NCBI RefSeq assembly: GCF_028622115.1 | Contig: NZ_CP097263.1 | Span: 496,001-560,000 of the forward strand | Direction: 5' to 3' | Length of the DNA stretch: 64,000 nt | Source of the DNA: Kutzneria chonburiensis | GTDB taxonomy: Bacteria > Actinomycetota > Actinomycetes > Mycobacteriales > Pseudonocardiaceae | Part shown: positions 6,716-53,500 of the stretch, piece after piece | How the letters are laid out: every line of letters starts with the position of its first letter | Numbering within the stretch: the stretch's first letter is position 1 | The notes under the pieces: generated by a model | Told to the model about the DNA's origin: nothing | Databases searched by the model: none | Seen by the model: the letters and a program-made list of their open reading frames with translations, nothing else | Position numbers and translations under genes: made by a program

Positions 6716-6744
6716 GCGGCCCGACCTCGCAGAGGTCGGGCCGC
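6716..6744 (-). terminator. Hairpin terminator of the DUF2510-like gene
   Basis: A perfect 13-bp stem (6716-6728 with 6732-6744) with a GCA loop, 16 bases beyond the stop of the minus-strand gene ending at 6760. A short T-rich run follows in that direction. Confidence 0.7.
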
Positions 6745-6759
6745 TGGTGAGCGCGGGGA

Positions 6760-7530: not shown

Positions 7531-7633
7531 GTCGCCTCCCCCTGTAGGAGAGGTCAATTCTCACCGCGACCGCCGGCCCGGCCCATGTCCGTTCGGACGG
7601 CCGAAGAGGCAGCCGGCGCAGCCCGCCAGTTGC

Positions 7634-7682
7634 CACATGCGCTTCCCATGTGGCACCAGGGCGCAAGTGGGAAGCGCATGTG
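7634..7682. repeat. 49-bp palindromic element, variant interior
   Basis: Ends are CACATGCG and CGCATGTG, exactly 49 bases end to end, and the full inverted repeat is 17 bp (7632-7648 with 7668-7684). Length and ends match three copies at 47455, 59092 and 59181, but the interior differs and here the stem is much longer. It sits between two divergently transcribed genes, so it is not a simple terminator. Confidence 0.6.
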
Positions 7683-7813
7683 GCGCGAGAGGTGGTGGGG
7701 GTTGGTCGGCGTGGATACGCTGCACGCGGGGCCCGACCGGTGGGGCTTTACCTGTCGTTGACGGGCGCTTGTGGGTAGGTTGGCGCGGATTCCGCACCGA
7801 GGGAGCCTTCACC

Positions 7814-30436: not shown

Positions 30437-30595
30437 TCGACGGCCGGCCGTGTCGCCTCGGGCAGCCGGGGCGGCACGGACGGTCGGAAGTCCTTACCAA
30501 CAGGTGAACGAGCGCCAGGTCGGGCCGGGAACGCCGTGCGATTGTCAGACCCCCGTGTAGCGTCGGAACGACGACGATCACGAAGGGTGGTAACG

Positions 30596-31843
30596 GTGAC
30601 TACCGTCAGTGTTCCTCCCGCCACCGACTCGGCGCCGGACTTACTCCGCGACCGTGAGCGGGCCGAGGCCTACGTGGCCTCGGTCTGCTTCAAACACGGG
30701 CCACCGCGGTACGTCGGCGCTGAGATCGAGTGGACGGTGCACCACGCGCAGGACCGATGTCAGCCGCTGGACCCGCAAGTCCTGGTGAAAGCCCTGGGGC
30801 CGCACGCCCCCGCCACGCTCCGGCCCGACAGCCCGAACCTGCCGCTTCGCGGTGGTTCCCCTGTCACCGTCGAGCCCGGTGGCCAGGTGGAGATCTCCAC
30901 TCCGCCCAAGACGACCGCAGCCGACCTGCTCACCACCGTCTCCGCCGACATCACGCAGCTCACGGGGCTGCTCGCGGCGGAAGGTCTGGAACTGGGCACG
31001 GCCGGCGCCGATCCCCATCGCCCGCCGCGACGCATCCTCGACACCCCGCGCTACGCGGCGATGAACTCCCGTTTCGACCGGTACGGACCCGACGGCGTCA
31101 CCATGATGTGCAGCTCCGCCGGGCTTCAGGTGTGCCTGGACACGGGGGAGCAGAAACAGGTCGCCACCCGCTGGAACGCGCTGCACGCGCTGGGTCCGGC
31201 GCTGCTGGCGGCGTTCGCCAACTCGCCGGGACTGTGCGGCCGCGACACCGGCTGGGCCTCGGCCCGCACCCGTGTGGTGCTGGGGGCCGAGCCCGCGCGC
31301 AGCGGCCCGGGCGATACCGGCGACGACCCGGCGGCCAGCTGGGCCCGGCGCGTGCTGGACACGCCGCTGATCTGCTTCCGGCACGGCGGCGACAACTGGG
31401 ACGTGCCCGGTGACGTCACGTTCGCCGAGTGGATCGACGGCGCGCTGCCCGGCGTGCCCACCACCGAGGACCTCGACTACCACCTGAGCACCATGTTCAC
31501 CCCGGTCCGGCCGCGCGGCTACTTCGAGGTGCGGTACCTGGACTCGCAGCCGCCGGACGACTGGAGCCCGGCGGTCGCGCTGCTCATCGCCCTGTTCAGC
31601 GCGGACGACGTCGTCGACGCCGCGCTGGACGCGGCCGCGCCCGCGGCGGGGCGCTGGCTGCCGGCGGCCCGGCACGGACTGGACGACCCGCTGGTCGCCC
31701 GGGCCGCGGCCGCCGCACTGGAGCTGGGCCTGCGTCATCTGGACCGGCTCGGCCTGCCGACGGAGCTGTCCGCGCCGGTGATCGAGAGCCTCGATCGCCG
31801 CCTCGCGACGGCCACCGCGAAGCTTGGAGGCACCTCGCTGTGA
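30596..31843 (+). CDS. egtA: EgtA, glutamate-cysteine ligase of ergothioneine biosynthesis
   Basis: A 415-residue GCS2-type ligase that joins glutamate to cysteine with ATP, giving gamma-glutamylcysteine for EgtB. Core sequence includes YVGAEIEWTVH, the strand with the metal-binding Glu, and TVEPGGQVEISTPP, the conserved glutamate/metal site. The later MMCSSAGLQVCLDTG and RGYFEVRYLDSQP are also family features. GTG 30596 follows GGGTGG; an earlier in-frame start at 30536 adds an Arg-rich piece and is rejected. First gene of the egt operon; its TGA overlaps the GTG of egtB. Confidence 0.92.
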   Translation: MTTVSVPPATDSAPDLLRDRERAEAYVASVCFKHGPPRYVGAEIEWTVHHAQDRCQPLDPQVLVKALGPHAPATLRPDSPNLPLRGGSPVTVEPGGQVEISTPPKTTAADLLTTVSADITQLTGLLAAEGLELGTAGADPHRPPRRILDTPRYAAMNSRFDRYGPDGVTMMCSSAGLQVCLDTGEQKQVATRWNALHALGPALLAAFANSPGLCGRDTGWASARTRVVLGAEPARSGPGDTGDDPAASWARRVLDTPLICFRHGGDNWDVPGDVTFAEWIDGALPGVPTTEDLDYHLSTMFTPVRPRGYFEVRYLDSQPPDDWSPAVALLIALFSADDVVDAALDAAAPAAGRWLPAARHGLDDPLVARAAAAALELGLRHLDRLGLPTELSAPVIESLDRRLATATAKLGGTSL

Positions 31844-33144
31844 CTGCAATTGATCTTCGTTTCGCCATCGCGGAGGCTCTTGAGCGCTCCCGTGACCGCA
31901 GCACCCGGCTCACCGATGCCGTCGACGACAACGACCTGGTGCGCCAGCACTCCAAGCTGATGTCCCCGCTGGTGTGGGATCTCGCGCACATCGGCAACCA
32001 GGAGGAGCTCTGGCTGGTCCGTGACGTCGGCGGCCGCGACCCGGTGCGCCAGGACATCGACGAGCTGTACGACGCGTTCCAGCATCCGCGGGCCGAACGG
32101 CCGGCGCTGCCGCTGCTCAACCCGACCGAGGCCCGCGCGTACGTGCGCGAGGTGCGGGACAAGGTGTTCGACGTGCTGGACCGCACGCCGCTGGAGGGGC
32201 GCAAGCTGGTCGAGAACGGCTTCGCCTTCGGCATGATCGTGCAGCACGAGCAGCAGCACGACGAGACCATGCTGGCCACGCACCAGCTCCGCACGGGCGC
32301 GCCGGTGCTGCACGCGCCCGAGCCGCCGGCGGCTTCGGGTGAACGCCTGCCGGCCGAGGTGTTCGTGGCCGGCGGTCCGTTCGAGATGGGCACCTCGCTG
32401 GAACCCTGGGCGCTGGACAACGAAAGGCCGGCGCACCAGGTGCAGGTCGACTCGTTCTGGATCGACACCGTGCCGGTGAGCAACGGGCAGTACCTGGCCT
32501 TCATCGACGCCGGCGGCTACGACGACCAGCGCTGGTGGAGCGAGCGGGGCTGGGCCTACCGCAACGAGGCCAACCTGACCGCTCCTCGGTTCTGGCGGCG
32601 GGACGGCGACGGCTGGCTGCGCACCAGATTCGGCGTGGTGGAGCCGATTCCGCTGGACGAACCGGTGGTGCACGTGTGCTTCTGGGAGGCGCAGGCCTAC
32701 GCGGCGTGGGCCGGCAAGCGGCTGCCGACCGAGCCGGAGTGGGAGAAGGCGGCCCGCTACGACCCGGAGACCGGGCGGTCCCGCCGATATCCCTGGGGCG
32801 ACGAGGATCCCACGCCCGAGCACGCCAACCTGGGCCAGCGGCACCTGCGGCCGGCCCCGGTCGGCGCGTATCCGCTCGGGCAGTCGGCCTACGGTGTGCG
32901 GCAGCTCGTCGGCGACGTGTGGGAGTGGCTCGACTCCGACTTCCGGCCCTATCCCGGCTTCAAGGCGTTCCCGTACAAGGAGTACTCCGAGGTGTTCTTC
33001 GGCGGGGACTACAAGATGCTGCGGGGCGGGTCGTTCGGCACCGACAAGGCGGCGGTCAGAGGCACCTTCCGCAACTGGGACCACCCGATACGGCGGCAGA
33101 TCTTCGCCGGCTTCCGGTGCGCCCGCGACCACCGGCCGGACTGA
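31840..33144 (+). CDS. egtB: EgtB, hercynine oxygenase
   Basis: A 434-residue non-haem iron enzyme that joins gamma-glutamylcysteine to hercynine and oxidises the sulfur. The N-terminal DinB-like domain supplies iron ligands: His in DLAHIGNQEE (about residue 50) and two His in HEQQHDETML (about 136 and 140). The C-terminal FGE-sulfatase-like domain has GGPFEMGTSLEPW, RLPTEPEWEKAAR and GDVWEWLDSDF, and ends GFRCARD. GTG 31840 overlaps the egtA stop and has GGAGG before it. Length fits actinobacterial EgtB. Confidence 0.94.
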   Translation: MTAIDLRFAIAEALERSRDRSTRLTDAVDDNDLVRQHSKLMSPLVWDLAHIGNQEELWLVRDVGGRDPVRQDIDELYDAFQHPRAERPALPLLNPTEARAYVREVRDKVFDVLDRTPLEGRKLVENGFAFGMIVQHEQQHDETMLATHQLRTGAPVLHAPEPPAASGERLPAEVFVAGGPFEMGTSLEPWALDNERPAHQVQVDSFWIDTVPVSNGQYLAFIDAGGYDDQRWWSERGWAYRNEANLTAPRFWRRDGDGWLRTRFGVVEPIPLDEPVVHVCFWEAQAYAAWAGKRLPTEPEWEKAARYDPETGRSRRYPWGDEDPTPEHANLGQRHLRPAPVGAYPLGQSAYGVRQLVGDVWEWLDSDFRPYPGFKAFPYKEYSEVFFGGDYKMLRGGSFGTDKAAVRGTFRNWDHPIRRQIFAGFRCARDHRPD

Positions 33145-33149: not shown

Positions 33150-33910
33150 GTGTGCCGCCATCTGGGCTACCTGGGCCCCGCCGTGCCGCTGACGGAGCTG
33201 CTGCTGGCGCCGCCGCACTCGCTGCTGCACCAGTCGTACGCGCCGCAGGACATGCGGCACGGCGGGACCATCAACGCCGACGGTTTCGGCGCGGGCTGGT
33301 TCGCGCCGGGCGAGAAGTCGCCCGTGCGCTACCGGCGTGACGTGCCGATGTGGACCGACGCCGCCTTCGCCTCGCTGGCCGGTGCGAGCACGGCCACGGC
33401 CGTGGTCGCCGCCGTGCGGTCGGCGACCGTCGGCATGCCCGTCGTGGAGACGGCCAGCGCCCCTTTGCCGAGGGGAACTGGCTGTTCAGCCACAACGGCG
33501 TGGTCCGCGGCTGGCCGGACAGCGTTTCACTGCTGGCGCAACGACTTCCCGTGGCCGATCTGCTCACTTTGGACGCCCCGACCGACGCCGCCCTGCTGTG
33601 GGCGTTGGTCCGGCATCGGCTGCGGGCCGGGCAGGAGCCCGTCGACGCCGTCGAGGCCGTCATGCTCGAGGTCGCCGCCGCGGCGCCCGATTCCCGGCTG
33701 AACCTGTTGCTGGGCAACGATGAGCTGCTCGTCGCCACCGCGTGGTGGCACTCGCTGTGGGTGCGGCCCGGTCCCGGCGCCGTGACCGTGGCGTCCGAGC
33801 CCATCGACGACGACCCGGCCTGGGTCGCCGTGCCCGACCACAGCATCGTGTTCGCCTCCAAGACCACTGTGGACATCCGACCCCTGGATCCAGGACGGCA
33901 GGAACCATGA
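33150..33910 (+). pseudogene. egtC: EgtC amidohydrolase, frameshifted near 33460
   Basis: EgtC is a glutamine-amidotransferase-type Ntn hydrolase that removes glutamate from the EgtB product. It begins VCRHLGYLG, so Cys2 becomes the N-terminal nucleophile. The frame is good to GMPVVETASAP, then breaks; the family sequence resumes as FAEGNWLFSHNGVVRG in another frame and runs to 33910. The join is at a run of four C (33460-33463); one extra C would restore about 253 residues. The stop overlaps the egtD ATG. It starts five bases after egtB. Either a recent mutation or a read error; if real, the pathway would stall at the glutamyl intermediate. Confidence 0.88.
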
Positions 33911-34878
33911 CCAACCCCGTGGTGGAAAACCACCTCACCGCCGACCACATGGCCCGCGCGCTGCGCAACGACGTGCGGGCCGGGCTGGCCGGCCCGCTGA
34001 AGTCGTTGCCGCCCAAGTGGTTCTACGACGCCGTGGGCAGCGATCTGTTCGAGCGGATCACCGAGCTGCCCGAGTACTACCCGACCAGGGCCGAGCGCGA
34101 GGTGCTGCGGGCCAGGGCCGGCGAGATCGCTGCCGTGACGCAGGCGCGGACGTTGGTCGAGCTCGGCTCCGGCTCGTCGGACAAGACCAGGACCCTGCTG
34201 GACGCGTTGCGGGACAACGGTTCCCTGCGGCAGTTCGTGCCCATGGACGTGTCCGAGAGCGCACTGCGGGCCGCCGCCGAGACCATCGTCGGCGAGTATC
34301 CCGGGCTGTCCGTGCACGCCGTCGTCGGCGACTTCACCGAGCATCTCGCCCTGCTGCCCGGCGAGGGGCCGCGGATGATCGCGTTCCTCGGCGGCACCAT
34401 CGGCAACCTGCTGCCGGCCGAGCGGGAGAAGTTCTTCCGCTCCATCCGCGAGGTGCTGGAGCCGGGGGAGTGGCTGCTGCTCGGCACCGACCTCGTCAAG
34501 GATCCCGGCGTGCTGGTGCCGGCCTACGACGACTCGGCCGGTGTCACGGCCGCGTTCAACCGCAACGTGCTCCGGGTCGTCAACCGTGAGCTCGACGCCG
34601 ACTTCGACCCGGACGCCTTCGCCCACGTGGCGCTGTGGGACGCCGAGAACGAGTGGATCGAGATGCGGCTGCGGGCCCTGCGGGCCATGCACGTGCGGCT
34701 GCCCGGGGCCGGCGTCGAGATCGACTTCGCCGAGGGCGAGGAGCTGCGGACCGAGATCTCGGCCAAGTTCCGCCGCGAGGGCGCCGGTGCCGAGCTGGCC
34801 GAGGCCGGCTTCGGCCTGTCGCACTGGTGGACCGACGAGGCCGGGCGGTTCGCCGTGTCCTTGTCCCGCGCGGAGTAG
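33907..34878 (+). CDS. egtD: EgtD, L-histidine N-alpha-methyltransferase
   Basis: A 323-residue SAM-dependent enzyme that trimethylates histidine to hercynine, the first substrate of EgtB. Recognised by PPKWFYDAVGSDLFERITELPEYYPTRAE at the N-terminus, LVELGSGSSDKTRTLLDA as SAM motif I, MIAFLGGTIGNL with the histidine-site region, and VALWDAENEWIEMRLRA near the C-terminus. ATG 33907 overlaps the egtC stop. A strong terminator follows at once, so the egt operon ends here and contains no egtE. Confidence 0.95.
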   Translation: MTNPVVENHLTADHMARALRNDVRAGLAGPLKSLPPKWFYDAVGSDLFERITELPEYYPTRAEREVLRARAGEIAAVTQARTLVELGSGSSDKTRTLLDALRDNGSLRQFVPMDVSESALRAAAETIVGEYPGLSVHAVVGDFTEHLALLPGEGPRMIAFLGGTIGNLLPAEREKFFRSIREVLEPGEWLLLGTDLVKDPGVLVPAYDDSAGVTAAFNRNVLRVVNRELDADFDPDAFAHVALWDAENEWIEMRLRALRAMHVRLPGAGVEIDFAEGEELRTEISAKFRREGAGAELAEAGFGLSHWWTDEAGRFAVSLSRAE

Positions 34879-34885: not shown

Positions 34886-34917
34886 CACCGGCGGGTGCCT
34901 TTCGGCACCCGCCGGTG
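34886..34917 (+). terminator. Strong terminator of the egt operon
   Basis: A perfect 14-bp stem (34886-34899 with 34904-34917), loop TTTC, followed by TATCTTTC. It begins 7 bases after the egtD stop. Confidence 0.85.
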
Positions 34918-34980: not shown

Positions 34981-36027
34981 ATGAGGACACTTCGAACCTT
35001 CCAGCTCCCCGCCGAGGTCACCGGTTCGATCTGGGACATCGCGCTGGGTGTCGAACTCGTCCGTGCCTGGCAGACCGACGGCATCCTCCAGGTGGCCACC
35101 GACAGCATCGCCAACGCCGTCACCGCTGCCGCGCTCCGTGAGAGTCGCCGGTTCTTCGCGTTGCCGCTGCGTGACAAGGCACGCCTGGTCAGCGATCTCA
35201 CCTATGCCGGCTATGTCGCCTCCGGTGAGGAGGTGACCGCCGGTGAGCAGGACTTCTCCGAGATCTTCACGGTGTGCAAGGACCTGCCGACCACCGATCC
35301 GCGCGTCCGCGCCGGCTGGCCCGGCCACGGGCCGGTGCCGTGGCCCGATCCGGTCTACCGGGACGTGATGACCGCCCTGATGTTCCAGTTCGGCCTCATC
35401 GGCGACAAGATCCTCAAGCTCACCGCGTTGGGCCTCGGCCTGCCCGACATGAACGTCCTGACCGAGCTGGCCACCGACGGCTGGCACCACATGCGCGTGC
35501 TGCGGTTCCCCGCCCGCTCCGCCGTGACGGCCCGTGGCATCGGGGCGCACACCGACTACGGCATGCTGGTCATCGCCACCCAGGACGACGTCGGCCAGGG
35601 CCTGTTCGTCCGTCCCCCGGTCGACGGCGAGAAGCGGCCCCGCAACTGGCTGGAGCACGAGAGCTCGGCCGGCGTCTTCGAGCACGAGGAGCCTTGGCAC
35701 CTGGTCGATCCCGTGCCGAGCACCTTCACCGTGTTCCCCGGCGACATCCTCCAGTTCCTCACCGCGGGGGAGCTGCTGTCCACGCCGCACAAGGTCAAGC
35801 TGGCCGACCGTGACCGGTACTCCGTGGCCTACTTCCACGAGCCCGACTTCCCGGTCACGCTCCGTCCGGTCAACGGCGGCGACCCCGAGGAGACCATCCA
35901 CTACGGCACGCATTTCACCAACATGTTCATGCGCTGCTACCCGGATCGCGTGACCACACAACGCATCCTGGCCGAAAACCGCCTCTCCATCCTCACCCGC
36001 ATGCGCGAGTCGGCGCTGACCCCCTGA
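34981..36027 (+). CDS. efe: Ethylene-forming-enzyme-type Fe(II)/2-oxoglutarate oxygenase
   Basis: A 348-residue dioxygenase, the size of Pseudomonas syringae EFE (350). From memory of that protein, long stretches agree: SDLTYAGYVASGEEVTAG, SEIFTVCKD, DGWHHMRVLRFP, RGIGAHTDYG, WLEHESSAGVFEHEEPW, VFPGDILQFLT, LSTPHKVKL and HFTNMFMRCYPDR. Iron ligands are His190, Asp192 and His270, the 2-oxoglutarate Arg is Arg279, and Arg172 matches the EFE Arg171 that holds substrate arginine. EFE makes ethylene and CO2 from 2-oxoglutarate and hydroxylates L-arginine. There is a one-residue insertion after DDVG. ATG 34981 has no clear ribosome site; a TCGTGC/GCACGA palindrome (34954-34967) lies just upstream. 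Its terminator-isolated position suggests its own promoter. Confidence 0.88.
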   Translation: MRTLRTFQLPAEVTGSIWDIALGVELVRAWQTDGILQVATDSIANAVTAAALRESRRFFALPLRDKARLVSDLTYAGYVASGEEVTAGEQDFSEIFTVCKDLPTTDPRVRAGWPGHGPVPWPDPVYRDVMTALMFQFGLIGDKILKLTALGLGLPDMNVLTELATDGWHHMRVLRFPARSAVTARGIGAHTDYGMLVIATQDDVGQGLFVRPPVDGEKRPRNWLEHESSAGVFEHEEPWHLVDPVPSTFTVFPGDILQFLTAGELLSTPHKVKLADRDRYSVAYFHEPDFPVTLRPVNGGDPEETIHYGTHFTNMFMRCYPDRVTTQRILAENRLSILTRMRESALTP

Positions 36028-36235: not shown

Positions 36236-38392
36236 TCAGTTGGCTGGGACGAGGGTCCAGCGCTGGTTGGCCCCGTTGTTGGCGGACCACTGGATGACGG
36301 CGGCGCCGTCGGTCAGGGAGTTGTTGTAGGCGTCCAACAGCAGGCCGCTGGAGGCGCTGGTGATGGTGAGGCGGTTGGGGCCGGCGTCGGCCAGCCGCCA
36401 GCGGGAGTTGGCGTTGCCGTCGTCGTGGTACTGGATCAGCTGCGTGCCCTGCGTGGTGGAGCCGCCGGGGACGTTGAGCAGCTTGCCGCTGTTGACGTTG
36501 GTGATCGTGTAGAGGCCGCCGGCCGCCGGGGCCAGCGTCCACAGCTGGTCGGCCTGCTCGTTGTCCTCCCACTGGAGGACCTTGGCGGCGTCGGCGGTGG
36601 AGTCGTTGTCCACGTCCATCCGGCCGCCGCTGTTGAGGTTGACGAGCTTGTAGCGCGTGCCGGCGTCGATCACCGGCGTGAGCTGCCACTGCTGGTCCGA
36701 CGATCCGGTGCCGACGGCCTGGCTGGCGTTGGCGCCGACGACCAACCCGTTGAGGGCGCTGGTGATCGTGCTCCCGGACACCCGCCACTGGGCGGCCCCG
36801 CCGGTGTCGTGGGACTGGACCAGAGTGGCGCCAGGGGTGGAGTTCGGCACGGTCAGCAGCCGGCCGGTGCTGCGGTTGACGAGCTTGACCGTGCCGGCGC
36901 CGGTGCTGACGGCTTGCCACTGCTGGGTGGTGCCGCCGTTGGCCGGGCGCTGGACGACGGCGGAGCCGTCCGTGGAGGACGTGACGTCGAGGGCACCGTT
37001 GGCGTTGCCGATCGTGTAGTACATGCCGGTGTAGTGGAAGCCGGCGGCGGGCACGACCCGGAGCAGCCGTGAGGCATGCGGCGCAAGGGATGCGCTGAAC
37101 GTGTTCGTCGCGGTGCCGAGATCGGTGTGCGTCCACAGGTCACGCACCGAAGCCGTGCCGCCGAAACCGAGGTCGCTCCACCGAGCGGTGACGGTGGCGG
37201 TGGAACCGGTGAGGTTGAACAACGCCACGGTGTAGCTGCCGTCCGCGTTGCCGGTGGCCCAGGTCTGCAACTGGGTCAGCCGGTCCACCGGCCGGGCGGC
37301 GTTGCCGCGCTGGTCGACGGCCAGCACCTCGTCGTTGGTGAGCAGCGACAGGTCGTCGGCCGTGAGCGCGGTGAGGTCGGTGCCCAGGGTGATCGGCGAG
37401 GCCGTGACCGCCCACAGCGTCATCGCGGTACGGCGCTCGTCAGCGGTCAGGCCGGTGTTCGAACCGCCGATTTCCAGCGAGTCCGGGTCGTTCCAACCGC
37501 CGGCACTGGCCCAGTCGGTCCAGTTCGGCAGGTCGCCGAACCGCTGCGCCACGTTGTTCCAGTTCGTCAGCGTCGAGCAGTAGCACTCGACGTCGCCCTC
37601 GATGCGCCAGCCGTTGGCGTACTGCTTCCACGTCGCCGCGTCGGACAGCGCCAGCGAGTTGGACAGCTCGAAGTGGATCGGCCGCCCGGCCTGGTTGAGC
37701 GCCTGCGACCAGTGCTGCACGTCCGGGATGTCCCAGTCGCCGACGCCGTCCAGCTTGACGTAGTCCACGCCCCACGACGCCAGCTGGTTCGCCCAGGAGT
37801 TGAGGAACGCCTGCGCGGCGGCCGGGTTCTTGGCGTAGTCGATGTAGTACATCGAGCCGTTGCCGAAGTTGTAGTTCGTCTCGTAGCGGCTGGTGTCGGA
37901 GACGATGTCGCGGGCGTGCCAGCCGGTGCCCTCGATCGGCGTGTTCTGCTGGTACGCCGCGACCGGGATGCCCGGCGTCAGGTACATGCCGAACTTCTCA
38001 CCGAGACCGTGCACATAGTCGGCCACGACCGCCATGCCGTGCGGGAAGTGACCCGGGTCGATGGCCCAGCGGCCGCCGGAGTCCACCGTGGTCTTCGGGT
38101 TGAGGTAGTAGAAGTCGTCGATGTTCAGATAGGTGTAACCGTGCGTGACCAGGCCGCTGTCGTGCATGGCCTTGGCCTGCCCCTCGATGTTCGCCTCGGT
38201 CGGATTGCTCCGTACGAAGCTCCAGCTGCTCCAGCCCAGCTGCGGCGTGGCCGCGACGCCGTTGGCCTGCATCGGCGCCAGGCCACCCGACGTGACCTGG
38301 TTACGGTCAGGCTCCGCGTGTGCGGCTGGCAGGGGCAGCACGCACAGCAGGGCCGCGCAGAAAAGTGAATGTGTCAACCGTCCGAAGTGCAA
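36236..38392 (-). CDS. Secreted GH27 alpha-galactosidase with ricin-type lectin repeats
   Basis: A 718-residue secreted enzyme. Signal peptide to about residue 26 (AAHA). The GH27 catalytic barrel starts TPQLGWSSWSF, has YLNIDDFYYL, the nucleophile Asp in DYVKLDGVGDWD and the acid/base Asp in GGWNDPDSLEIG, then a beta-sandwich (ALFNLTGSTATVTARWSDLGF). From about residue 440 two ricin-B-like lectin units follow, with repeated QW motifs (QQWQAVS, QQWQLTP, QLWTLAP, SRWRLAD, QRWTLVP). It should remove alpha-galactose from plant galactans or gum while bound to sugar. TTG start at 38392 behind GAGGGTGG. Confidence 0.92.
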   Translation of the reverse strand: MHFGRLTHSLFCAALLCVLPLPAAHAEPDRNQVTSGGLAPMQANGVAATPQLGWSSWSFVRSNPTEANIEGQAKAMHDSGLVTHGYTYLNIDDFYYLNPKTTVDSGGRWAIDPGHFPHGMAVVADYVHGLGEKFGMYLTPGIPVAAYQQNTPIEGTGWHARDIVSDTSRYETNYNFGNGSMYYIDYAKNPAAAQAFLNSWANQLASWGVDYVKLDGVGDWDIPDVQHWSQALNQAGRPIHFELSNSLALSDAATWKQYANGWRIEGDVECYCSTLTNWNNVAQRFGDLPNWTDWASAGGWNDPDSLEIGGSNTGLTADERRTAMTLWAVTASPITLGTDLTALTADDLSLLTNDEVLAVDQRGNAARPVDRLTQLQTWATGNADGSYTVALFNLTGSTATVTARWSDLGFGGTASVRDLWTHTDLGTATNTFSASLAPHASRLLRVVPAAGFHYTGMYYTIGNANGALDVTSSTDGSAVVQRPANGGTTQQWQAVSTGAGTVKLVNRSTGRLLTVPNSTPGATLVQSHDTGGAAQWRVSGSTITSALNGLVVGANASQAVGTGSSDQQWQLTPVIDAGTRYKLVNLNSGGRMDVDNDSTADAAKVLQWEDNEQADQLWTLAPAAGGLYTITNVNSGKLLNVPGGSTTQGTQLIQYHDDGNANSRWRLADAGPNRLTITSASSGLLLDAYNNSLTDGAAVIQWSANNGANQRWTLVPAN

Positions 38393-38611: not shown

Positions 38612-38914
38612 TCAGTCCGCGTTCTGCCGCCGCTGCACCGGGATCCGCCGGGACCGCCGGGCCGCCACCGCCGCGCTCTCCCAGCGCTCCGACGGGCAGC
38701 CCAGCACCTCGCTGAGCCAGTTGCGCCAGTAGGGACCGGGGATGCGCTTGCCGCGCTCCCAGCGCGACACCTCCTCCCTGGTCACCGCGTCGTTGCCGGA
38801 CACCCCCGCCAGCTGGTCGGCCAACTCGTACTGGGTCAGCCCGTGCTGGCCCCGGAGATGGATTATCAACTCGCCGATGGAGAGTTGCGTACGCATTCCA
38901 GTGCCGCCGATCAC
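38612..38914 (-). CDS. Small XRE-type helix-turn-helix protein
   Basis: A 100-residue DNA-binding protein. The HTH is IGELIIHLRGQHGLTQYELADQLAG, followed by REEVSRWERGKRIPG, which is the usual XRE recognition and turn region. GTG 38914 has GGGAGTGG upstream; ATG 38896 is a second option. It lies 257 bases downstream of the MFS gene on the same strand and could be its own unit or a distal part of that operon. The flanks 38393-38611 and 38915-39170 hold no convincing gene. Confidence 0.75.
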   Translation of the reverse strand: MIGGTGMRTQLSIGELIIHLRGQHGLTQYELADQLAGVSGNDAVTREEVSRWERGKRIPGPYWRNWLSEVLGCPSERWESAAVAARRSRRIPVQRRQNAD

Positions 38915-39170
38915 GTTCCACTCCCTGCTGCATGCGCCGGAATAGTGGATCCACGCGCGTCACATGCTCACCGCCCAAGGACCGTTTGGGATCCTATCGG
39001 CGGGTGCCCGCCATAGCTACGGTCCGTGCATGGTTTGTCGGAGAGATTCGGCCGTGTTGCCGGCCACGGATGAACGGAACTCACGCGCAATACCCGGAAT
39101 GGAGTAGATCCGGGCCGCCCCGGTCGCCGCACCGGCCGCTGCACGCGCATTCGACCGCACCCAGCCGCTG

Positions 39171-40417
39171 TCACGATGATCGGTCGTCCGCCACCTGGGT
39201 CTCGCGGCGCAACGCGAAGAACAACGCAGCCAGCAGACTCAAGCCGATCATGCCCACCGCCGACGCCGTCAGCGCGCCCTGCGCCGTCAGCGCAAGGATC
39301 AGCGGCGCGCCGATCAGTGCGCCGGCCGGGCTGGCCAGGGACAGCACCGCTCCCCGAGCAGCCAGCACCGGAGCCAGCTGCTCCTTGGGTACTGCACGCT
39401 GGAACAGCACCGTTGTGGTGGACGGGAACGGCCCCCACGTCAGACCACACAGCCCGAACGCGAGCCAGCCGATGTACACCGAGCCGCTCAACCCCAGCGG
39501 CAACAGCACCAGACCGAAGCACAGCACGGTACCGACCGTGGTCAGCCGCATCGGCCAGTTCTTCAGGTAGCCAGCCAGGATCGCACCCAGCACTGCGCCG
39601 ATACCGAACGACGTGTAGTAGCCGGCTAGTTGTGCCGCCGATCCGTGCAGGTCTTGGGACACATGTAGCGGCAGCGCGACCGTGACCGGGCCGAACAAGA
39701 CGAAGAAGCCGAAGGACAGCACCACCAATCCCAGCAGTTCCCGGCTGCGTCCGATCAGCTGGAAGCCGGCCGAGCGCCCCGACGTCGCCTTGACCGAGAC
39801 GGCCTTGGCTTCCGGGGGGACGGCACGCCCATAGGTCAGTGCCAGCACCGCGAACGTGGCAGCATCCACGGCGATCACCGCCGCCGGACCGACCAACCAA
39901 ATGATCAACGCGGCCAGCGGCGGACCGCCGACCGTCGAGAACTCGAGCAGCACGTTTACCACGGCGTTGCCGGCCAGCATGTGCTCGTCGGGCAGCAACT
40001 CGGCCAGCAGGGTGTACCGCCCGGCCTTGCCCCAGGCGCTGAGCAGCGAAGACAGCGCGAGCAGCACAACGTACAGCACCGGCGACAGCGCGCCGAGCAC
40101 GAAGCACAGCGGGATGGCGCCCAGTAGCACGGCCCTGGTCACTGCATCCCAACCGGCGAGTTGGGCACCGGAGCGTCCGCGAAGGAAGCGGTCGAACGCC
40201 ACGGCGCCCAGCGCGCCGGGGAGCACGTACGCCGCCGCCGCGAGGGCGACCCACGTGCCGCGCTGGTCAGGGGCGCGATCTGCAGTGCCAACCATGCGAT
40301 GGCGATGGTGCTCATACCGTCACCGATGCTGGAAAGACCGATACCCGGCAACACCTTACGCAGCACCGGGTGGGTGACCACCGGCCAGTACGGCGTGCGC
40401 TTCACCGCAGTCAACAT
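39171..40417 (-). pseudogene. MFS exporter, frameshifted near 40270
   Basis: Twelve-helix major-facilitator protein of about 415 residues if one base is restored. The first 49 or so residues (TPYWPVVTHPVLRKVLPGIG, then SIGDGMSTIAIAWLALQIAP) are read from 40417; the remainder (RGTWVALAAAAYVLPGALG onward to the stop) is one frame away. The join is at a run of four G on the plus strand (40270-40273), coding GCGCCCC, where one added C repairs the protein. It matches the enterobactin-exporter-like MFS group. It is the last gene of a unit with amidinotransferase and ligase, 36 bases downstream, so export of their product is inferred. GGAG precedes ATG 40417. Confidence 0.82.
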
Positions 40418-40453
40418 CGCAGAACTCCGCCCCTGTCGTTGCTTGTCCCGGCT

Positions 40454-41572
40454 TCAGCCGAGGTAGTTCTCCGGCCCGCCGTCGCGCACGACGTCGAGGG
40501 TCACGCAGTGGAAACCGCCGCCGAGCACCCGCTGGTGGCGCAGCCGGTGTGGGACCACGGTGATGCCGCGCCGCTCCAGCGTCGCGAGCAGCGCGGGCTG
40601 GTCGGCGTCGACGACGGCGTGCTGTTCATCGAGCATCAGCAGGTTCATGCTGATCCAGCGACCACTCAGCGCGTGATCCATGGCCAGCGGACCCTCGTCA
40701 ATCGGCGGGCACCAGACGACGTCCCAGCCGGCCAACGGCGCGGGCACGGTGTCGGGCGTGATTCGCTCAGGGTTGAGCAGGACCAGACCGGGCCGCAGGA
40801 ATGCGATCGTGCTGTCGATGTGCGTGTAGCCGTACACGTCGCGCAGCGGGTGCACACGCACATCGCCGACGAGTCGCATGGTCGACTCCAGCCAGCGCAG
40901 GCCTAACTCGTTGCCGCTGCGGGAGACCTGGTACAGCAGGTCTCGGCCGAGCCGGAGCACGTTGGCAGCCTCGAAGGCGGGCTCCGTCTCGCCGAGGACC
41001 GGCAGTCCCTGCTCGTCCAGCGCGAACAGCTCGTCGGTCAGCCGCGGCCGCGGCGCGGCCAGCCACTGCGCGCCCTGCGCCAGATAGTCCTGCAACAGCG
41101 GGCGCAGGCCGAACTGCTCGAAGTAGCGCGACCGTGCCGGACTCGGCGTCTCGATGAGGGTCGAGCCGACGACGAGGGTGAGGTCGCGCGGGCAGTAGGT
41201 GCTGAAGCCCGTGGTGTGCCAGTCGGGTGTGCCGAACCGCGCGCTGTGGTCGATCGGGACCGGCCGGCGCACTGTGACCCCGAATTGCTCGAGCAGGCCG
41301 ACCAGACCGGCCAGGTCCTCGTTGGTCTCGTCGATGATCCACTGCGGGTAGCGGCCGGTGCGCACCGCGGCCAGTTCGGACGCGGTGAGCTCCGGGTAGT
41401 AGTTGAGCCAGGCGGACGGGTCCGCGGTCAGGTCGGGAATGGCGGCGCCGGTGGCGTCCCCTACTACCACTTCCCGCAAAGTGGTGAACTCGTCCCACGA
41501 GTTGACCACGGGACGGGTGGCGGGCTCGGCGCGGGCGTGCTCGCTCGGCGCGAGCAGGTGCTCTACGGTCAT
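40454..41572 (-). CDS. Amidinotransferase (glycine amidinotransferase-like)
   Basis: A 372-residue enzyme of the guanidino-group-modifying superfamily, moving the amidino group of arginine to an amine acceptor. Active-site parts: RDLTLVVGSTLIETP with the catalytic Asp region, YTHIDSTIAFL with the His, and GGGFHCVTLDV with the nucleophilic Cys at about residue 356. In the pheganomycin, resorcinomycin and ketomemicin pathways an enzyme of this kind makes an N-amidino amino acid that a PGM1-type ligase then uses. The ligase gene lies 23 bases upstream on the same strand, supporting that role here. Acceptor unknown. Confidence 0.88.
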   Translation of the reverse strand: MTVEHLLAPSEHARAEPATRPVVNSWDEFTTLREVVVGDATGAAIPDLTADPSAWLNYYPELTASELAAVRTGRYPQWIIDETNEDLAGLVGLLEQFGVTVRRPVPIDHSARFGTPDWHTTGFSTYCPRDLTLVVGSTLIETPSPARSRYFEQFGLRPLLQDYLAQGAQWLAAPRPRLTDELFALDEQGLPVLGETEPAFEAANVLRLGRDLLYQVSRSGNELGLRWLESTMRLVGDVRVHPLRDVYGYTHIDSTIAFLRPGLVLLNPERITPDTVPAPLAGWDVVWCPPIDEGPLAMDHALSGRWISMNLLMLDEQHAVVDADQPALLATLERRGITVVPHRLRHQRVLGGGFHCVTLDVVRDGGPENYLG

Positions 41573-41595
41573 GACGGTGGTGTCTCCGGACGCGT

Positions 41596-42927
41596 TCAGG
41601 CCGAGCCGACCGGCAAGGCGTCGATGGTCGCGATCACGGCCTCGGCCGACTCATAGTCCTCGCCGACGATGCAGTACATGACGATGCCGTTGACGTCGAC
41701 GTAGTTGCCGGTGAGCACGACACCAGTACCGGTCGTGGCATCGAACTCCAGTCCCGCCGCACGCAGCGCCTCGACGGCGGCGACGAAGGACGGGACCGTC
41801 CAGGCCGCGCGTTCGATCATGACCCGGTGGCCACGGTGTTCCGGTCGCAGCATGCGGTCGCGCAGCGTGATGTGCAGATGCGTCGACCCGGTCAGCCGGC
41901 CGTTGGTCTCGCTGAACACGATTCGGCCGTCGCTGGTGCGGATCGCGTCAGCGCTGATGTTGCCCCGGTAGCCGAGGCCACGGAACGCCTCGCACAGTCG
42001 GCGTCCCTCGTCCACGAGTTCCTGGTGCTGCTCGGGGCTGACACCCTGCGGCGGCACGATCTCGCCGATGGCCACCGGCTCCATCAGGATCTGCCCGGTA
42101 CCGCGCAACTCGCTGGCACGCTCTCCGACCTCGAACTCCGAGTAGACGGTGACCGCATCGGTGAAGTACTGCTCGATGACCAGCCGGTCGTCGCGGCCGC
42201 CGGTCAGCCACGACCAGCGCTCGGCGACGTAGTCCTTGATGGCCTGTTCGTCAGGCAACACGACAACCTTGCGCGCCCCGGCCGGACGCACCCCCTCGGC
42301 CGTCGCCAAGATCTCGTTGCCGAAGCCGCCGCCGGCGAACTCCTTCTTGACGATGACGGCGTCGCCGTTGCCCAGGATCCGGGCGATCGTGGCCTCGGCC
42401 AGCTCCGGACGACCGGCGATCGCGCCCGGCGCGATGGCAACTCCGATACCCGCCGCGACGGCCCGGAAGGCGGCCTTGCTGTTGACCAATGCGTCGCCAC
42501 CCTGCTCGCTGAAGGCGAAGCCGGGCAGGGCAGTCTCGATGCCTACGGCCCTGGCCAGTTCGATGACGTAAGCGTCGTCGTAACAGGTGACGATCTCGTC
42601 GATCTCCCGCCCGGTCAGCGCCTGCTCCAGTTGTGCACGCAATCCCGGGTCGGTCAGCCGGTCCGGGGTGAGCAACTCGGCACCGAGGTAGCCGGGCGAC
42701 GGGACGAGCAGGGTGAGGGAAGCGCGGTCGACGCCGGTCCGGCCGAGGACGTAGTCGATGTAGTCGTCGTCCGCGATCCACGGCAGGACGAGGATGTCGC
42801 CGTCGTCGGCGAACCAGAACATGCGCTGAGCGCCCCAACCGCCCGCGACGCGCTCGGCCGGCGTCAGCAGCGACAGGTCGCCGACCATTTCCTCGGTGCG
42901 GCTGTTGGCGATGATCAGTTTCGACAT
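41596..42927 (-). CDS. PGM1-type ATP-grasp peptide ligase
   Basis: A 443-residue ligase of the PGM1-related group (pre-ATP-grasp domain, ATP-grasp, PGM1 C-terminal domain). Visible: a Rossmann-like N-terminal part (DILVLPWIADDDYIDYVLG), AVIVKKEFAGGGFGNEI for ATP phosphate contact, RLVIEQYF before the linker, FSETNGRLTGSTHLH for the Mg-binding Glu/Asn and Arg, and a C-terminal GVVLTGNYVDVNGIVMYCIVGEDYESAE. PGM1 joins an amidino amino acid to a peptide amine. It opens the operon with the amidinotransferase and exporter; AGGGGGAC gives a strong ribosome site at ATG 42927. No precursor-peptide gene was found nearby, so a free amino acid or short peptide is the likely partner. Confidence 0.88.
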   Translation of the reverse strand: MSKLIIANSRTEEMVGDLSLLTPAERVAGGWGAQRMFWFADDGDILVLPWIADDDYIDYVLGRTGVDRASLTLLVPSPGYLGAELLTPDRLTDPGLRAQLEQALTGREIDEIVTCYDDAYVIELARAVGIETALPGFAFSEQGGDALVNSKAAFRAVAAGIGVAIAPGAIAGRPELAEATIARILGNGDAVIVKKEFAGGGFGNEILATAEGVRPAGARKVVVLPDEQAIKDYVAERWSWLTGGRDDRLVIEQYFTDAVTVYSEFEVGERASELRGTGQILMEPVAIGEIVPPQGVSPEQHQELVDEGRRLCEAFRGLGYRGNISADAIRTSDGRIVFSETNGRLTGSTHLHITLRDRMLRPEHRGHRVMIERAAWTVPSFVAAVEALRAAGLEFDATTGTGVVLTGNYVDVNGIVMYCIVGEDYESAEAVIATIDALPVGSA

Positions 42928-47818: not shown

Positions 47819-48031
47819 GGCACGTGGGTGGCGGCGCTGCTCTCCGCTACGAAGAGGCAACGTAGCGTGGCGCGGATACCCCCTGGCCGTTCTGTCACCC
47901 GATGGGCCCAGCAGCGCTGCCTCTGCGTGCCATTTGACGCAGACGAACGCCGCAGCGGTGGTTAGCCTTGCCGCGACGGGGCGGCAACTTACGATGGCCG
48001 GGCGAAGATCGTGAGCGACGGGGAGGCGCGG

Positions 48032-49537
48032 GTGGACTCTGCTGGCCGGCCGCGGCTGCCGGAAACCGTGCGCAACCGGCTGGTGGCGCTGCTGCTCGAG
48101 GTGGACGAACTCCAGGACCCGACCACCCGCGGCTCGATCGTGACCGAGCTGCGCAACCGCCTCGGCCCCGGTTTCGACGTGCCGACCCAGACGACCGACC
48201 GGCTCTACACGATCGCCCTGGTCGAGGAGTGCCAACGGCACTACGGCGGCCTGCGCAAGCTGGTGGACGCGCTGCGCCTGTTCTGCCAGGGGCACTACCG
48301 CGTGGAAGAGGCCGCGGACCTGATCGCCGGGCACGTGCCGCTGGAGATCCTGTTCCCGGCCGAGCGCGCGGATCTGCGCAAGCTGCTGTCGCCGCTGACC
48401 GGCGAGGTCGACGCGCACAGCGTGTACCGCGCGTCGTCGGGACCGCTGGCGCCGCCGCTGGAGTCGGCATCGGACGATCTGCTCGGCGTGGCCGACGAGC
48501 TCGTGAACCGGATGATGCTGCCCGGACAACTGCCGCCGCTGCTGAACTTCATCGAGTACCTCGCAGCCTTTGTGGACGGTCGTGGGCAGACGGCGCAGGC
48601 GTTGCGCCGCTGGAACGCGGACGTGGTGCGCCGCTGCGAACTGCCGTCGCAACTGCTGGCCGTGGCGCGGGAGAACGCGCACCTGCACGTGACCAAGCGC
48701 GTCGGCCGTGCCTCGCTGCTCGTGCAGATCGAGGAGGACGGCCTCGACCACAACCGGTACCAGGTGTCGGTGTGGCTGTGGCTGGACACCGACAGCCAGA
48801 CGCTCGCGCGTGACGACCACTCGTACGCGCTGGAGGAGATCCGCGACGTCGTGGACCGCGCGTTGCAGGACTGTGTCGGCCTGTTGGTCACGGATGCCGT
48901 GGTGCCGACGGTGGAGTTCATCCTGCCGCACCGGTTGCTGGTGACGGACGTGGACAAGTGGCTCGTCACACACGGCAGTCCGTTCGGCCGCCGGCTCGGC
49001 ACCTACTACCCCGTGGTCGTGCGCAGCCTGGACCGCCTGCGCACCACGTCGCTGCCCTTGCGCCAACTGTGGCGTGCGAAGTGGCGGTGGTTGCAGGAAC
49101 ACAGCGGACTGCACCCGGAGTCGGCGGTGCGTTGGCTCGGCGACGAAGACGGCCGCGACCCGCAGCGGTTGTACCGCGAGCTGAGTGGGGACCAGCAGCC
49201 CGTCGCAGTCGCGTGGCACGGACCGCCGCCGCCGGAACACCAGGCGGCCGACTCCGTGCTGGGCGCGGCGGTGTGGGCCGGCACGCCCGTCGCGCTGTGG
49301 TGCCGTGAGCACCACGGCGAGGGCGGTCACCTCCAGCTGGCCGACATGCTCACCAACCGTCCGCTGCCGGGACTGCCCGACCACGCGCTGCGCGCCCGTA
49401 TGGAGGCCGACGCCCCCGGCGCCGCCGACGACCACTGCGGCAACCACCTCAGCCTGCTCTGGGACGACCCGTCCCGCCTGCCCGAGCCACGATTCGGGCT
49501 GTCCGCGCCGAGCTCAACGGGAGGATCCCCACCATGA
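48032..49537 (+). CDS. VMAP-type protein with N-terminal effector-associated domain
   Basis: A 501-residue protein, the partner of the MoxR and vWA genes that follow. Residues about 1-95 are an effector-associated domain of the EAD2 kind ([19 protein letters not shown], then [21 protein letters not shown]). The rest fits VMAP-C proteins, the third part of vWA-MoxR-VMAP conflict systems ([52 protein letters not shown]). In those systems VMAP is thought to link the ATPase/vWA pair to effectors through matching EADs. GGGGAGG lies before GTG 48032, preferred over GTG 48011. Its stop overlaps the MoxR ATG. Confidence 0.82.
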
Positions 49538-50580
49538 CCGGGGATGAGGACTGGCTGATCTACCGGGGTGCCGGCGAGCCGCACGACGGCATCGACCGCC
49601 TCCCGCCGCCACCGCGGTGGCGTGAGTTCGGCGGCCTGCCCCTGGTGGAGCCGCTGCTCGGCACGGACGGTTCGGGCGGCCGCAAGCTGGGGGAGCAGGA
49701 GCGGGCCACCACGTACCGCGCCGACAGTGAGGTCACGGAGATCGTCAACGCGGCGCTGTACCTGCGCCGGCCGCTGCTCGTCACCGGCAAGCCCGGCACC
49801 GGCAAGTCCACGCTGGCGTACAGCATCGCCCACGAGCTCAAGCTGGGGCCCGTGCTGCGCTGGCCGATCACCAGCCGCTCCACGCTCCAGGACGGCCTCT
49901 ACCGCTACGACGCGGTTGGCCGGTTGCAGGACGCCAGCCTGCGCCAGGGCAGCGCGCGGCCGTTGCTGCGTACGGGAAGTGGCGAGCCGGCGGCGCCGCC
50001 GAGCATCGGCCGCTACATCCGGTTGGGCAAGCTCGGCACGGCGCTGCTGCCGCAGGCGCGGCCCCGGGTGCTGCTGATCGACGAGATCGACAAGAGCGAT
50101 GTCGACCTGCCCAACGACCTGCTCAACGTGTTCGAGGAGGGCGAGTTCGAGATCCCCGAGCTCACCCGGCTGCCCGACGACCAGGCCACGGTCGAGGTGA
50201 TGATTGCCGACGGCACCGACCGGGTGCCGATCCAGCGCGGTCGCGTGCGCTGCAACGCTTTCCCGGTCGTGGTGCTGACCAGCAACGGCGAGCGCGACTT
50301 CCCGCCGGCCTTCCTGCGCCGCTGCCTGCGCGTGGACATCCGCACGCCCAACCGGCAGCAGCTGACCGACATCGTGACGGCGCATCTCGGTGCCGACGCG
50401 GTGACCGCCAGCGAAGACGTGATCGATCGCTTCCTCGAGGACCGCCGCGTCGGCGACCTGGCCAACGACCAGCTGCTCAACGCCATCTACCTGGCCGCGT
50501 CCGGCGGCCGTCCGCCCGAGGAGACCCGGGCCCGGCTGCTCGACGCGCTGCTGCGGCCGCTCAGCCAGCCGGGCCAATGA
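49534..50580 (+). CDS. MoxR-family AAA+ ATPase of the VMAP system
   Basis: A 348-residue AAA+ protein. Walker [17 protein letters not shown], Walker [21 protein letters not shown], sensor 1 [19 protein letters not shown] and Arg-finger region are all present. MoxR ATPases remodel partner proteins together with vWA-domain co-factors; the next gene encodes such a vWA protein. ATG 49534 overlaps the VMAP stop and its own stop overlaps the next start (both ATGA), so three proteins are produced in a coupled way. Confidence 0.93.
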
Positions 50581-53500
50581 GACTGGAGCGGCTCGTCGAC
50601 GCGCTGGCGGCGGCCCAGGTGGACGTCACCGGCGAGGAGCTGGCCGACGCCATCTGGCTGGCCGGCTTCTTCGGCGACGCCCGGTCCGTCGGCAGCGAGC
50701 CGGTGCCGGAGCGGGAGGTGCTGCCGCCGCCGGTGGAGCCGGAGGGGCCGGTTTCCACGGACGCCGTGGAGACGGATCGCCGGCCACGCCTGGGATCCCG
50801 GCCGTCGCCGGGGGCCACGGAGGTGCCCGCGTCTTCGGCGGCCATGCACCTGCCGGGGCGCGGGAATCACGTGGATGGCATGAGCGCCTTGACCATGCTC
50901 AGCCCGGCGGCCCCGGCGCTGCCGGACACGCTGCGGCTGTCGCGCGCGCTGCGGCCGTTGAAGCGGCGGGTGCCCGACCCGCACCGGCTGGTCGTCAACG
51001 AGCAGGACACGGCCGACCACATCGCCGACACGGGCCTGTGGCTGCCGGAGTTCCAACCGGAGATGACGCGCTGGCTGGAAGTCGCGCTGGTCGTCGACTC
51101 CGGGCCGTCCATGCGGATCTGGCAACGCGCGGCCGTGGAGCTGCGGGTGTTGCTGGAGCGCATGGGGGCGTTCCGGGACGTGCGCGTGTGGGAGATGGAC
51201 ACCCGTGAGGACGAGCCGCGGCTGCGGCGACCGGGTGCGCCGAGCCGCAGTCCCCGTGAGCTGATCGACCCGAGCGGCCGTCGACTCGTGCTGATGCTGA
51301 GCGACTGCGTCGGCGAGGCGTGGGTTTCCGGTGCCATGTCACGGTTGTTGACGCTGTGGTCGAAGTCGGGGTCGGTGGCGATCGTGCAGACGCTGCCGCA
51401 GCGGCTGTGGCACCGCACCGGTGTGGTGCCGGTTCCGGTGCGGCTGCGGGCTTTCGAGTCGGGGCTCCCGTTCCGGCGCTTCGAGTTCCAGCCGCGCAAC
51501 CAGGGTTTCGGCGCGCCGCCGCCGACCGGGATTCCCGTGCCCATCATGGAGTTGGACCCGCGGTGGATCGGCCGCTGGGCGTCGCTGCTGGCCGGCGAGA
51601 ACCGCGGCTGGGTCGACGGCGTGGTGGTGTTGGCCGGCGGCGAGATCGGGGCCCGTCCGGAGTGGATGGTCGACGTGCCACCGGACACGCCGCTCGATCT
51701 CGTGCAGGCCTTCCGCGCCACGGCATCGCCGACGGCGTTCCGACTGGCCGGCTTCCTGTCCACGGCCCCGCTGAACCTGCCGGTGATGCGCCTGGTGCAG
51801 GCGACGATGCTGCCCGAATCGGGGCCGGCGCACCTGGCCGAGGTGTTCCTGGGGCAGCTGCTGCACCGTGTGGGGGAGGAGCAGCCGCGCGAGGACCCGG
51901 ACGACGTCCAGTACGACTTCCACAAGGGCGTAAGGGAAACGCTGCTGGGCACGCTGCGCCGGGACGAGGCCGTACGGGTCTTCGGCGAGGTGTCGCGGTT
52001 CGTCGGCAGCCGGATGGGGCAGCCGCTGGACTTCGCCGCCATGCTCGCGGATCCCTTCGGGCACAACGGTCCTCGGCTGTCGCCGGACAGCGTGGCGTTC
52101 GCCCAGGTGTTCAAGACGGTGCTGGAATCGTTGGGACCGCCGTATTCGCAGGCGGCCAAGCGTTGGAGCGAGCTCGCGCCGCCGTCGGAGGACGACGGCT
52201 CACCGGCCATGGTCGAACTGACCACTTTGGACGGTGGGGAGACCACAGCGCAGATTGAGGCTGGTGAACTGGGCACGGAGGAAGTCGAGCGCACGGAACG
52301 GATGGCCTCGCAGATCTGCCTCTGCTACCACCCTCGGGACTACGCCTGGGCGGAATGGCTGCGCTGGGAACTGGACCGGCTCGGCTACGCCGTGGTGATC
52401 CGGCCGCTGTCCGAGGCGTCGACCCCGGACGGCCTGCGCCGGCTCGCCGCCGAGGCGCTGGAGAACGGCCGCTACGTCATCACGGTGATCTCCGCGAGCA
52501 CGGTCGCGCTGCCGTTCGCCGGCGAGGCGTGGTTGCAGGCGCTGATCGACAGCCCCGGCACCCGCGGCCGCGTGCTGGCGGTGACCGTGCACGCCGGGCT
52601 GCTGCTGGCCGAACTGGTGGACCGGATCGACGGCGTCACGTTCGAGGGCAAGGACGCCCGCACGGCGCTCAACGCCATCGTCGACTGCCTCGGCCGGGTC
52701 GCGGCCCGGCCGGCGCGGACCACGCCGCCGGAGGTGCTGCGCTTCCCGCCGCCGCCGTTCCCGGGCGACGAGTCGCACGTCGGCGAGCCGGACAGCCAGG
52801 GGCCGGTGTGGGTGCTGACCGAGATCCGCGCGGGCGGGCGGTCGCTGCTGGCCCGCGGCGGCGCTGACGGCGCGGTGCGGCTGATCGACGTGGCCACCGG
52901 GCAGACCGTGCTCAACCTGGAGGGCCACACCGGCCCGGTCCGGGTGCTGGCGGCGATTCCCTCGGCCGACGGCGGCCACGACATGATCGCCAGCGGCGGC
53001 GTTGACGGCATCGTCCGCACGTGGGACCTGGATTCCGGCGCGCTGGTCCGGGAGAGCCGGTTCCTCGAGGGCGAGGTGTGGGCGCTGGCCACGGTCCGCG
53101 TCGGCGGCCGGATCTGCCTGGCCGGCACCGGATCCGGCTCGATGATCCAGCTCTGGGACCCGGAGACCGGGCAGCGGATGCGCACCCTGGTCCGCCGCGG
53201 CGGCCGCGTGTGGGCGCTGGCCTCGGTCGCGGTCGGCGGCCGCGAGCTGCTGGCCAGCGGCGGCGCCGACGGCACGATCCGGCTGTGGGATCCGGAGACC
53301 AGCGCGGTGCTGCGGACCATCCAGGCCCATCGCAGCACGGTGTGGGCCCTGACCACGATCGACGTGGACGGCCAGTCGCTGCTGGCCAGCGGCGGGGCCG
53401 ACGGGATGATCCACATGTGGCATCCGCGCACCGGCGCGCTGGTCAACTCGTTCGTCGGGCACGTGAGCACCATTCGCACGCTCGCGGTCGTGCCCAGCCG

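Follow-up and report, generated by a model that had tools for sequence, protein, structure and literature searches.

The ethylene-forming enzyme (EFE) converts 2-oxoglutarate (2OG) to ethylene in one step and is among the few enzymes reported to release guanidine, which is yielded by its arginine reaction (PMC11018352). Twenty-three ligand-contact residues of EFE have been listed (PMC9101411). In the enzyme of Pseudomonas savastanoi/syringae (PsEFE; PDB 5v2t, 6vp4), deletion of loop 210–232 caused inactivation (PMC4202696), and this loop with E215 is described as needed (PMC4202696, PMC12329707). Effective ethylene formation requires a hydrophobic 2OG pocket, and Ser replacing A279 is one among several changes in poor producers (PMC12329707); the literature passages on EFE contained no measurement of the effect of this replacement alone. 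In PsEFE, A199G reduced ethylene, and F278Y and I322V singly were without effect on it (PMC4202696). Five further ethylene-making enzymes conserve the iron and 2OG residues, and only V85 and C317 vary of the 23 contacts (PMC9101411). A279 is therefore kept in all five, and we confirmed Ala for two of them, the ethylene-making enzymes of Scytonema NIES-4073 (locus L014) and Nostoc ATCC 43529 (locus L032).

More distant members of the same oxygenase superfamily include plant Din11, a homoarginine/arginine hydroxylase that releases guanidine, and 'PaIPNS' of Pseudomonas aeruginosa; the plant enzymes are 26% and PaIPNS 22% identical to EFE, with trace or no ethylene (PMC11018352, PMC12329707). The EFE homologue of Penicillium chrysogenum makes no ethylene, and a role in arginine breakdown has already been suggested for most EFE homologues (PMC4202696).

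In actinomycetes, an efe homologue was reported in Streptomyces scabiei (Bignell 2010, cited in PMC8369830) and in S. acidiscabies (PMC8369830), and in Frankia, nodule expression of efe was found and every residue considered relevant was present (PMC9392346). This branch of the family is large and has been discussed in the context of virulence or symbiosis, on the basis of sequence (PMC8369830) or of sequence plus expression (PMC9392346). Two Rhodococcus isolates gave a weak ethylene-like response, and an EFE gene was not found in them (PMC7002392). Our literature search, from which subscription papers were mostly absent so that absence is unproven, returned neither an assayed actinomycete EFE nor a paper on a Kutzneria EFE. 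An earlier note on the DNA studied here had described EFE as mostly pseudomonad and fungal and an actinomycete version as a new link; with S. scabiei and Frankia published and many actinomycete loci at hand, that view is out of date. The Kutzneria protein is a further member of a known family and not the first actinomycete EFE. It carries a residue inserted only in Kutzneria and a change in the 2OG pocket.

Identity and active site of the Kutzneria protein

We analyzed a stretch of 64,000 nucleotides (the window) from the complete 10.41 Mb chromosome of Kutzneria chonburiensis. The window encodes an EFE homologue of 348 aa (Table 1). An alternative GTG start lies at 34972, in the same frame and nine bases upstream of the ATG; the ATG was aligned in four of five Kutzneria rows, the window included, and in the fifth the place falls in an assembly gap. 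The best PDB match of the protein was EFE (E 7.8e-144, residues 1–342 of 348). Pairwise alignment with PsEFE gave 212 identical residues of 340 aligned (62%) and a score of 1127, compared with a maximum of 50 in 200 shuffles. All five conserved stretches quoted in the earlier note were present. Pfam recognized two generic oxygenase domains, DIOX_N and 2OG-FeII_Oxy; at E 0.001 there was no match to any NCBIfam model. The gene was the sole full-length EFE match in the host genome, the runner-up being 29% identical over residues 27–203.

GC contents at the three codon positions were 0.67, 0.46 and 0.91. Comparison with three Kutzneria orthologues gave dN of 0.073–0.113 and dS of 0.439–0.513, i.e., dN/dS of about 0.16–0.26. 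Because of this ratio and the conserved place behind egtABCD, the reading frame is a genuine gene under purifying selection; a chance frame or frame shadow was ruled out by EFE identity, codon-position GC and dN/dS. A viral origin was rejected, as viral contigs contained no match. A plasmid origin was likewise rejected; a single plasmid match reached E 1e-40 or better, at 43% identity.

Table 1. Features of the window and of related loci (window coordinates unless otherwise stated).
Feature	Position	Strand	Basis
egtA, ergothioneine glutamate-cysteine ligase	30536..31843	+	TIGR03444, 370.8 bits, equal to cut-off
egtB	31840..33144	+	TIGR03440, 447.7 bits, cut-off 360
egtC, two frames, start approximate	33150..33910	+	C-terminal piece matches TIGR03442 below cut-off
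egtD, histidine methyltransferase	33907..34878	+	TIGR03438, 367.6 bits, cut-off 290.9
Terminator-like hairpin between egtD and EFE gene, 14 pairs, TATCTTT tail	34886..34917	+	
EFE homologue gene, 348 aa	34981..36027	+	ORF, EFE structure match, pairwise alignment
Iron-ligand codons H190 and D192 (PsEFE H189, D191)	35548..35556	+	Residue alignment
Q206 codon, inserted residue after DDVG	35596..35598	+	Residue table, 79 rows
Iron-ligand codon H270 (PsEFE H268)	35788..35790	+	Residue alignment
S281 codon (PsEFE A279), sole change among 23 ligand-contact residues	35821..35823	+	Residue table
Alpha-galactosidase with ricin-type lectin domain, convergent neighbor, conserved in Kutzneria	36236..38392	-	
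'Permease, urea carboxylase system'	Behind riboswitch		686 bits, cut-off 740
UAAP1	Behind riboswitch		182 bits, cut-off 206
UAAP2	Behind riboswitch		293 bits, cut-off 285
Urea carboxylase match	Behind riboswitch		760 bits, cut-off 1304; profile positions 442-1107 of 1201
Protein bearing amidase and allophanate hydrolase C-terminal domains	Behind riboswitch, after carboxylase		
Amycolatopsis short-chain dehydrogenase genes (L012, L013, L016, L017, L021, L033, L040, L059)	About 6500-7930 of each locus		

Residues were compared in a table of 79 aligned rows; loci that were short or had a split frame (L081, L083, L084, L085, L086) were left out, as were redundant loci for genes already included (L001, L004–L007, L088, L089). 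The window protein kept 22 of the 23 ligand-contact residues listed in PMC9101411. The iron ligands were conserved (PsEFE H189/D191/H268 = H190/D192/H270), as were the arginines that hold the 2OG carboxylates (R277 = R279, R171 = R172) and the L-arginine site (E84, T86, R316 (= R318), C317, Y318); the long loop (PsEFE 210–232) with E215 was also retained. The iron ligands, the 2OG Arg and the arginine-binding Arg are thus in place, as the earlier note had stated. Its broader claim that the active-site residues are kept comes down to 22 of 23, because A279 is Ser (S281), a change that it had overlooked. In the alignment with PsEFE that it had proposed, the arginine contacts were all kept, but the 2OG pocket was altered by A279S. 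Of the hydrophobic residues lining the pocket (L173, I186, V196, A198, L206, F250, V270, A279, A281 and F283; PMC11025135), nine of ten were kept, A279 being the exception.

The inserted residue after DDVG, also claimed earlier, is real and is Q206. It occurred in five of the 79 rows, all five from Kutzneria, and in no other row. The Kutzneria group further differs from PsEFE by A199T and F278Y. At four of the ten ethylene-linked positions of PMC4202696, the window protein departs from PsEFE (A199T, E213D, F278Y, I322V); its Asp at 213 does not go beyond the variation seen among producers. A279S, A199T, F278Y and the insert fall where PMC12329707 and PMC4202696 locate the control of ethylene output. 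A lower or otherwise altered ethylene share, owing to Ser at A279, Thr at A199 and the insert beside G205–L206 (PsEFE numbering), is likely but unproven.

Position 279 varied across the 79 rows (Thr 39, Ala 30, Ser 8, Val 2). Both Val rows are degenerate relatives, and all five Kutzneria rows carry Ser. The tree requires at least seven changes of the Ala/hydroxyl state and places Pyxidicoccus (Ser) next to Myxococcus (Ala); therefore, the state may be neutral. Four actinomycete enzymes, from Actinoplanes subtropicus (L020, with Ala at 279), Streptomyces (L049, L079) and Nonomuraea (L076), kept all 23 contacts; the Lentzea enzyme has Thr at 279. This natural Ala/Ser/Thr variation at one pocket residue may bear on the ratio of ethylene formation to arginine oxidation.

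Compared with PsEFE over nearly the whole length, the window protein differs by A279S, A199T, F278Y, C280V, P93S and the one residue inserted after G204; P93S is common to 74 of the 79 rows, including proven ethylene producers. The Scytonema and Nostoc enzymes were 61% and 60% identical to the window protein, so that these proven producers are about as distant from it as PsEFE. Their contact residues equal those of the window protein except at 279, and in Nostoc also at 85; both retain A279, A199 and F278 and lack the insert. Two actinomycete relatives without the insert, from S. scabiei (L055) and Frankia meridionalis (L018), were 62% and 65% identical to the window protein; the former shows V85E and A279T, and the latter keeps A279 and shows C317S. 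No egt genes were found in these two loci.

Locus and distribution

In four further Kutzneria loci, the EFE gene also stands behind egtA-egtB-egtC-egtD and faces the alpha-galactosidase/lectin gene; the 4 kb locus L003 shows just egtC-egtD and the end of the alpha-galactosidase gene. About 40 bases upstream of the EFE start codon were largely conserved in aligned relatives, and the sequence of the hairpin was not. The egtC frame changes at about 33461–33476 in the window assembly and is a single open frame in L009, L010, L011 and genome G005, indicating either an assembly error or a real mutation.

Neighbors were compared across genera in the six widest clusters and three narrower ones, and none was convincingly conserved. 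One of the six was EFE itself, four were frames mostly overlapping EFE, and one comprised LuxR-type response regulators, which occurred near EFE in 18 loci of five genera at varying distances and on varying strands. The narrower clusters were short-chain dehydrogenases, P450s and ABC ATPases. In eight Amycolatopsis loci, a short-chain dehydrogenase gene ends just upstream of EFE (Table 1).

Among the best 80 of 83 matches, 56 of 79 EFE loci were actinomycete, and the rest were cyanobacterial, myxobacterial and proteobacterial. At E 1e-60, EFE was found in five of seven Kutzneria genomes (that of the window included), in one of 53 other members of the family and in none of 40 other genomes of the order. 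When 396 genomes sampled from the phylum were searched with an EFE profile at E 1e-50, two matched, the window's own among them. A tree of 78 rows, from which the degenerate second copy of L023 was dropped, was built by a quick method without bootstrap and has many open forks. The Kutzneria enzymes formed one group in it (support 100) with a long stem and without a near sister, and the pseudomonad group of PsEFE belonged to a 26-row assemblage (support 86) whose remaining members come from other proteobacteria, Frankia, myxobacteria and cyanobacteria. We infer that the gene has long resided in Kutzneria and was not recently acquired from pseudomonads.

Degenerate relatives were also observed. 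An EFE-like protein on an S. clavuligerus plasmid (L008, 8001–9125) has lost an iron-ligand His (H189P) and keeps 12 of 23 contacts; its gene adjoins a globin and an Rrf2-type regulator, and its tree partner is S. jumonjinensis L075. In Kibdelosporangium banguiense (L023), a second EFE-like frame immediately precedes the intact copy; it is degenerate, about 40% identical, and has lost the iron ligands.

Guanidine-related genes in EFE-bearing genomes

A guanidine-I riboswitch scored over the family cut-off in the window's genome (G000:C1:3274264–3274373). Behind it lie, in order, genes for a permease, UAAP1, UAAP2, a urea-carboxylase-type protein and an allophanate hydrolase-type protein (Table 1), the whole spanning G000:C1:3274264–3280900 (L106, L128). 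Given the stretch of the profile that it matches, the carboxylase frame is without the biotin carboxylase part. The carboxylase match likewise starts where UAAP2 ends in three other Kutzneria genomes, so that this part has no space there.

Guanidine-I was over the cut-off in exactly the five of seven Kutzneria genomes with EFE, which thus combine the EFE gene with a guanidine sensor, and the other two had weaker matches. One of these, in the EFE-lacking G005 (C3:1019909–1020040, L112; 44.8 bits), precedes an EamA-type transporter gene. Guanidine-III was found in none of the seven. Among 49 EFE-bearing actinomycete genomes searched with stricter filters, none had guanidine-I over the cut-off and six had weak matches; a general link between EFE and this riboswitch is thus unsupported.

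UAAP2 was over the cut-off in four of the five EFE-bearing Kutzneria genomes, with no match in Kutzneria 744, and in neither of the two without EFE. It was also over the cut-off in 34 of the 49 EFE-bearing actinomycete genomes outside Kutzneria and not in the other 15, 13 of which had no match at all. In Streptomyces, 16 of 22 EFE-bearing genomes carried it compared with 40 of a 150-genome genus sample (Fisher p 4e-5), a sample taken regardless of EFE, with at least one carrier (G519); kinship and genome size were uncontrolled, so the excess is a lead and no more. In Kutzneria and 23 family genomes, hand-picked from the 53 with a preference for larger ones, UAAP2 was over the cut-off in five of six EFE-bearing genomes and four of 24 without EFE; the Lentzea genome G013 among the 23 carries EFE and is also counted in the 49. 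The riboswitch and UAAP2 searches covered actinomycetes, not EFE-bearing proteobacteria, cyanobacteria or myxobacteria. Loci L083, L084, L085 and L066 were left out of the counts; L081, with EFE split over two frames, was kept and is one of the 16 of 22, and L061 was scored negative for UAAP2 despite sub-cut-off pieces on its contigs. A link between residue 279 and UAAP2 (Fisher p 0.016, 53 rows) was dropped because three independent pairs gave no direction.

Proposed activity and alternative readings

From its homology to EFE and its kept residues, we consider it probable that the protein is a functional, arginine-dependent EFE-type Fe(II)/2OG oxygenase giving measurable ethylene. The activity would most likely be dual, i.e., ethylene formation together with the splitting of arginine to guanidine and P5C. 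By transfer from PsEFE, H190, D192 and H270 would hold Fe(II), R279 would bind the C5 carboxylate of 2OG and R172 its C1 carboxylate, and L-arginine would lie between R318 and the E84–T86 loop. Once arginine is bound, attack by O2 would fragment 2OG into ethylene and CO2; in the alternative outcome, arginine would be hydroxylated at C5 and collapse to guanidine and P5C. We infer that the gene is expressed and that both reactions take place, in a ratio that the pocket Ser may affect.

A different balance of the two outcomes deserves consideration. The protein may be mainly an arginine 5-hydroxylase, in which the pocket Ser favors ordinary 2OG decarboxylation, guanidine and P5C are the main products with a trace of ethylene, and the guanidine is then handled by the riboswitch-controlled operon of the guanidine carboxylase type. 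We regard this as possible but unlikely. The combination of A279S, A199T and F278Y is consistent with it, as are the riboswitch in front of the permease-to-hydrolase genes, the coincidence of riboswitch and EFE within Kutzneria, the excess of UAAP2 in EFE-bearing Streptomyces and the arginine-breakdown role proposed in PMC4202696. However, the riboswitch did not accompany EFE in the other actinomycetes, UAAP2 was missing from Kutzneria 744 and fell below the cut-off in almost a third of the other genomes, and the Streptomyces comparison did not account for kinship or genome size. The carboxylase frame without its biotin carboxylase part, the repeated and perhaps neutral change at 279 and the independent pairs without a 279–UAAP2 signal also argue against it. 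A fuller version, in which the Kutzneria enzyme is the entry step of arginine breakdown, tuned by Ser 279, Thr 199 and the insert beside L206 to 5-hydroxylation, with guanidine sensed by the guanidine-I riboswitch and degraded by the operon elsewhere in the chromosome and ethylene as a side product, seems to us quite doubtful; if the arginine-breakdown reading were true, soil actinomycetes would have an internal source of guanidine. It is improbable that the protein is a side-branch 2OG oxygenase without arginine use, with another guanidino substrate or none. Degenerate relatives such as the S. clavuligerus plasmid protein are known, plant relatives use homoarginine (PMC11018352) and Kutzneria has an insert of its own, but every arginine contact listed in PMC9101411 is kept in the window protein.

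The position of the gene behind egtABCD could suggest a part in ergothioneine biosynthesis, which we consider highly improbable. The EFE gene shares its strand with the egt genes, and the order is conserved in Kutzneria. However, the terminator-like hairpin separates it from egtD, and Kutzneria G005 has a complete egtABCD without EFE. Moreover, when the EFE loci (up to 8 kb per side) were searched by tblastn with EgtA, EgtB, EgtD and a piece of EgtC, matches came from Kutzneria loci only, and constant egt company was not found across genera. Given the hairpin and the lack of a neighbor common across genera, we did not read the EFE gene as part of ergothioneine synthesis.

Two other gene groups were observed in the window. 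The minus strand at 38615–42927 encodes, side by side, a helix-turn-helix protein, a transporter of the MFS type (below cut-off), a protein resembling inosamine-phosphate/glycine amidinotransferases (1bwd match, E 2e-96) and a Pre-ATP-grasp domain protein, possibly forming a small arginine-using natural-product cluster. On the plus strand at 48011–54632, genes for an EAD2/VMAP-C protein, an AAA ATPase and a WD40 protein stand in a row, which we take to resemble vWA-MoxR-associated conflict-type systems.
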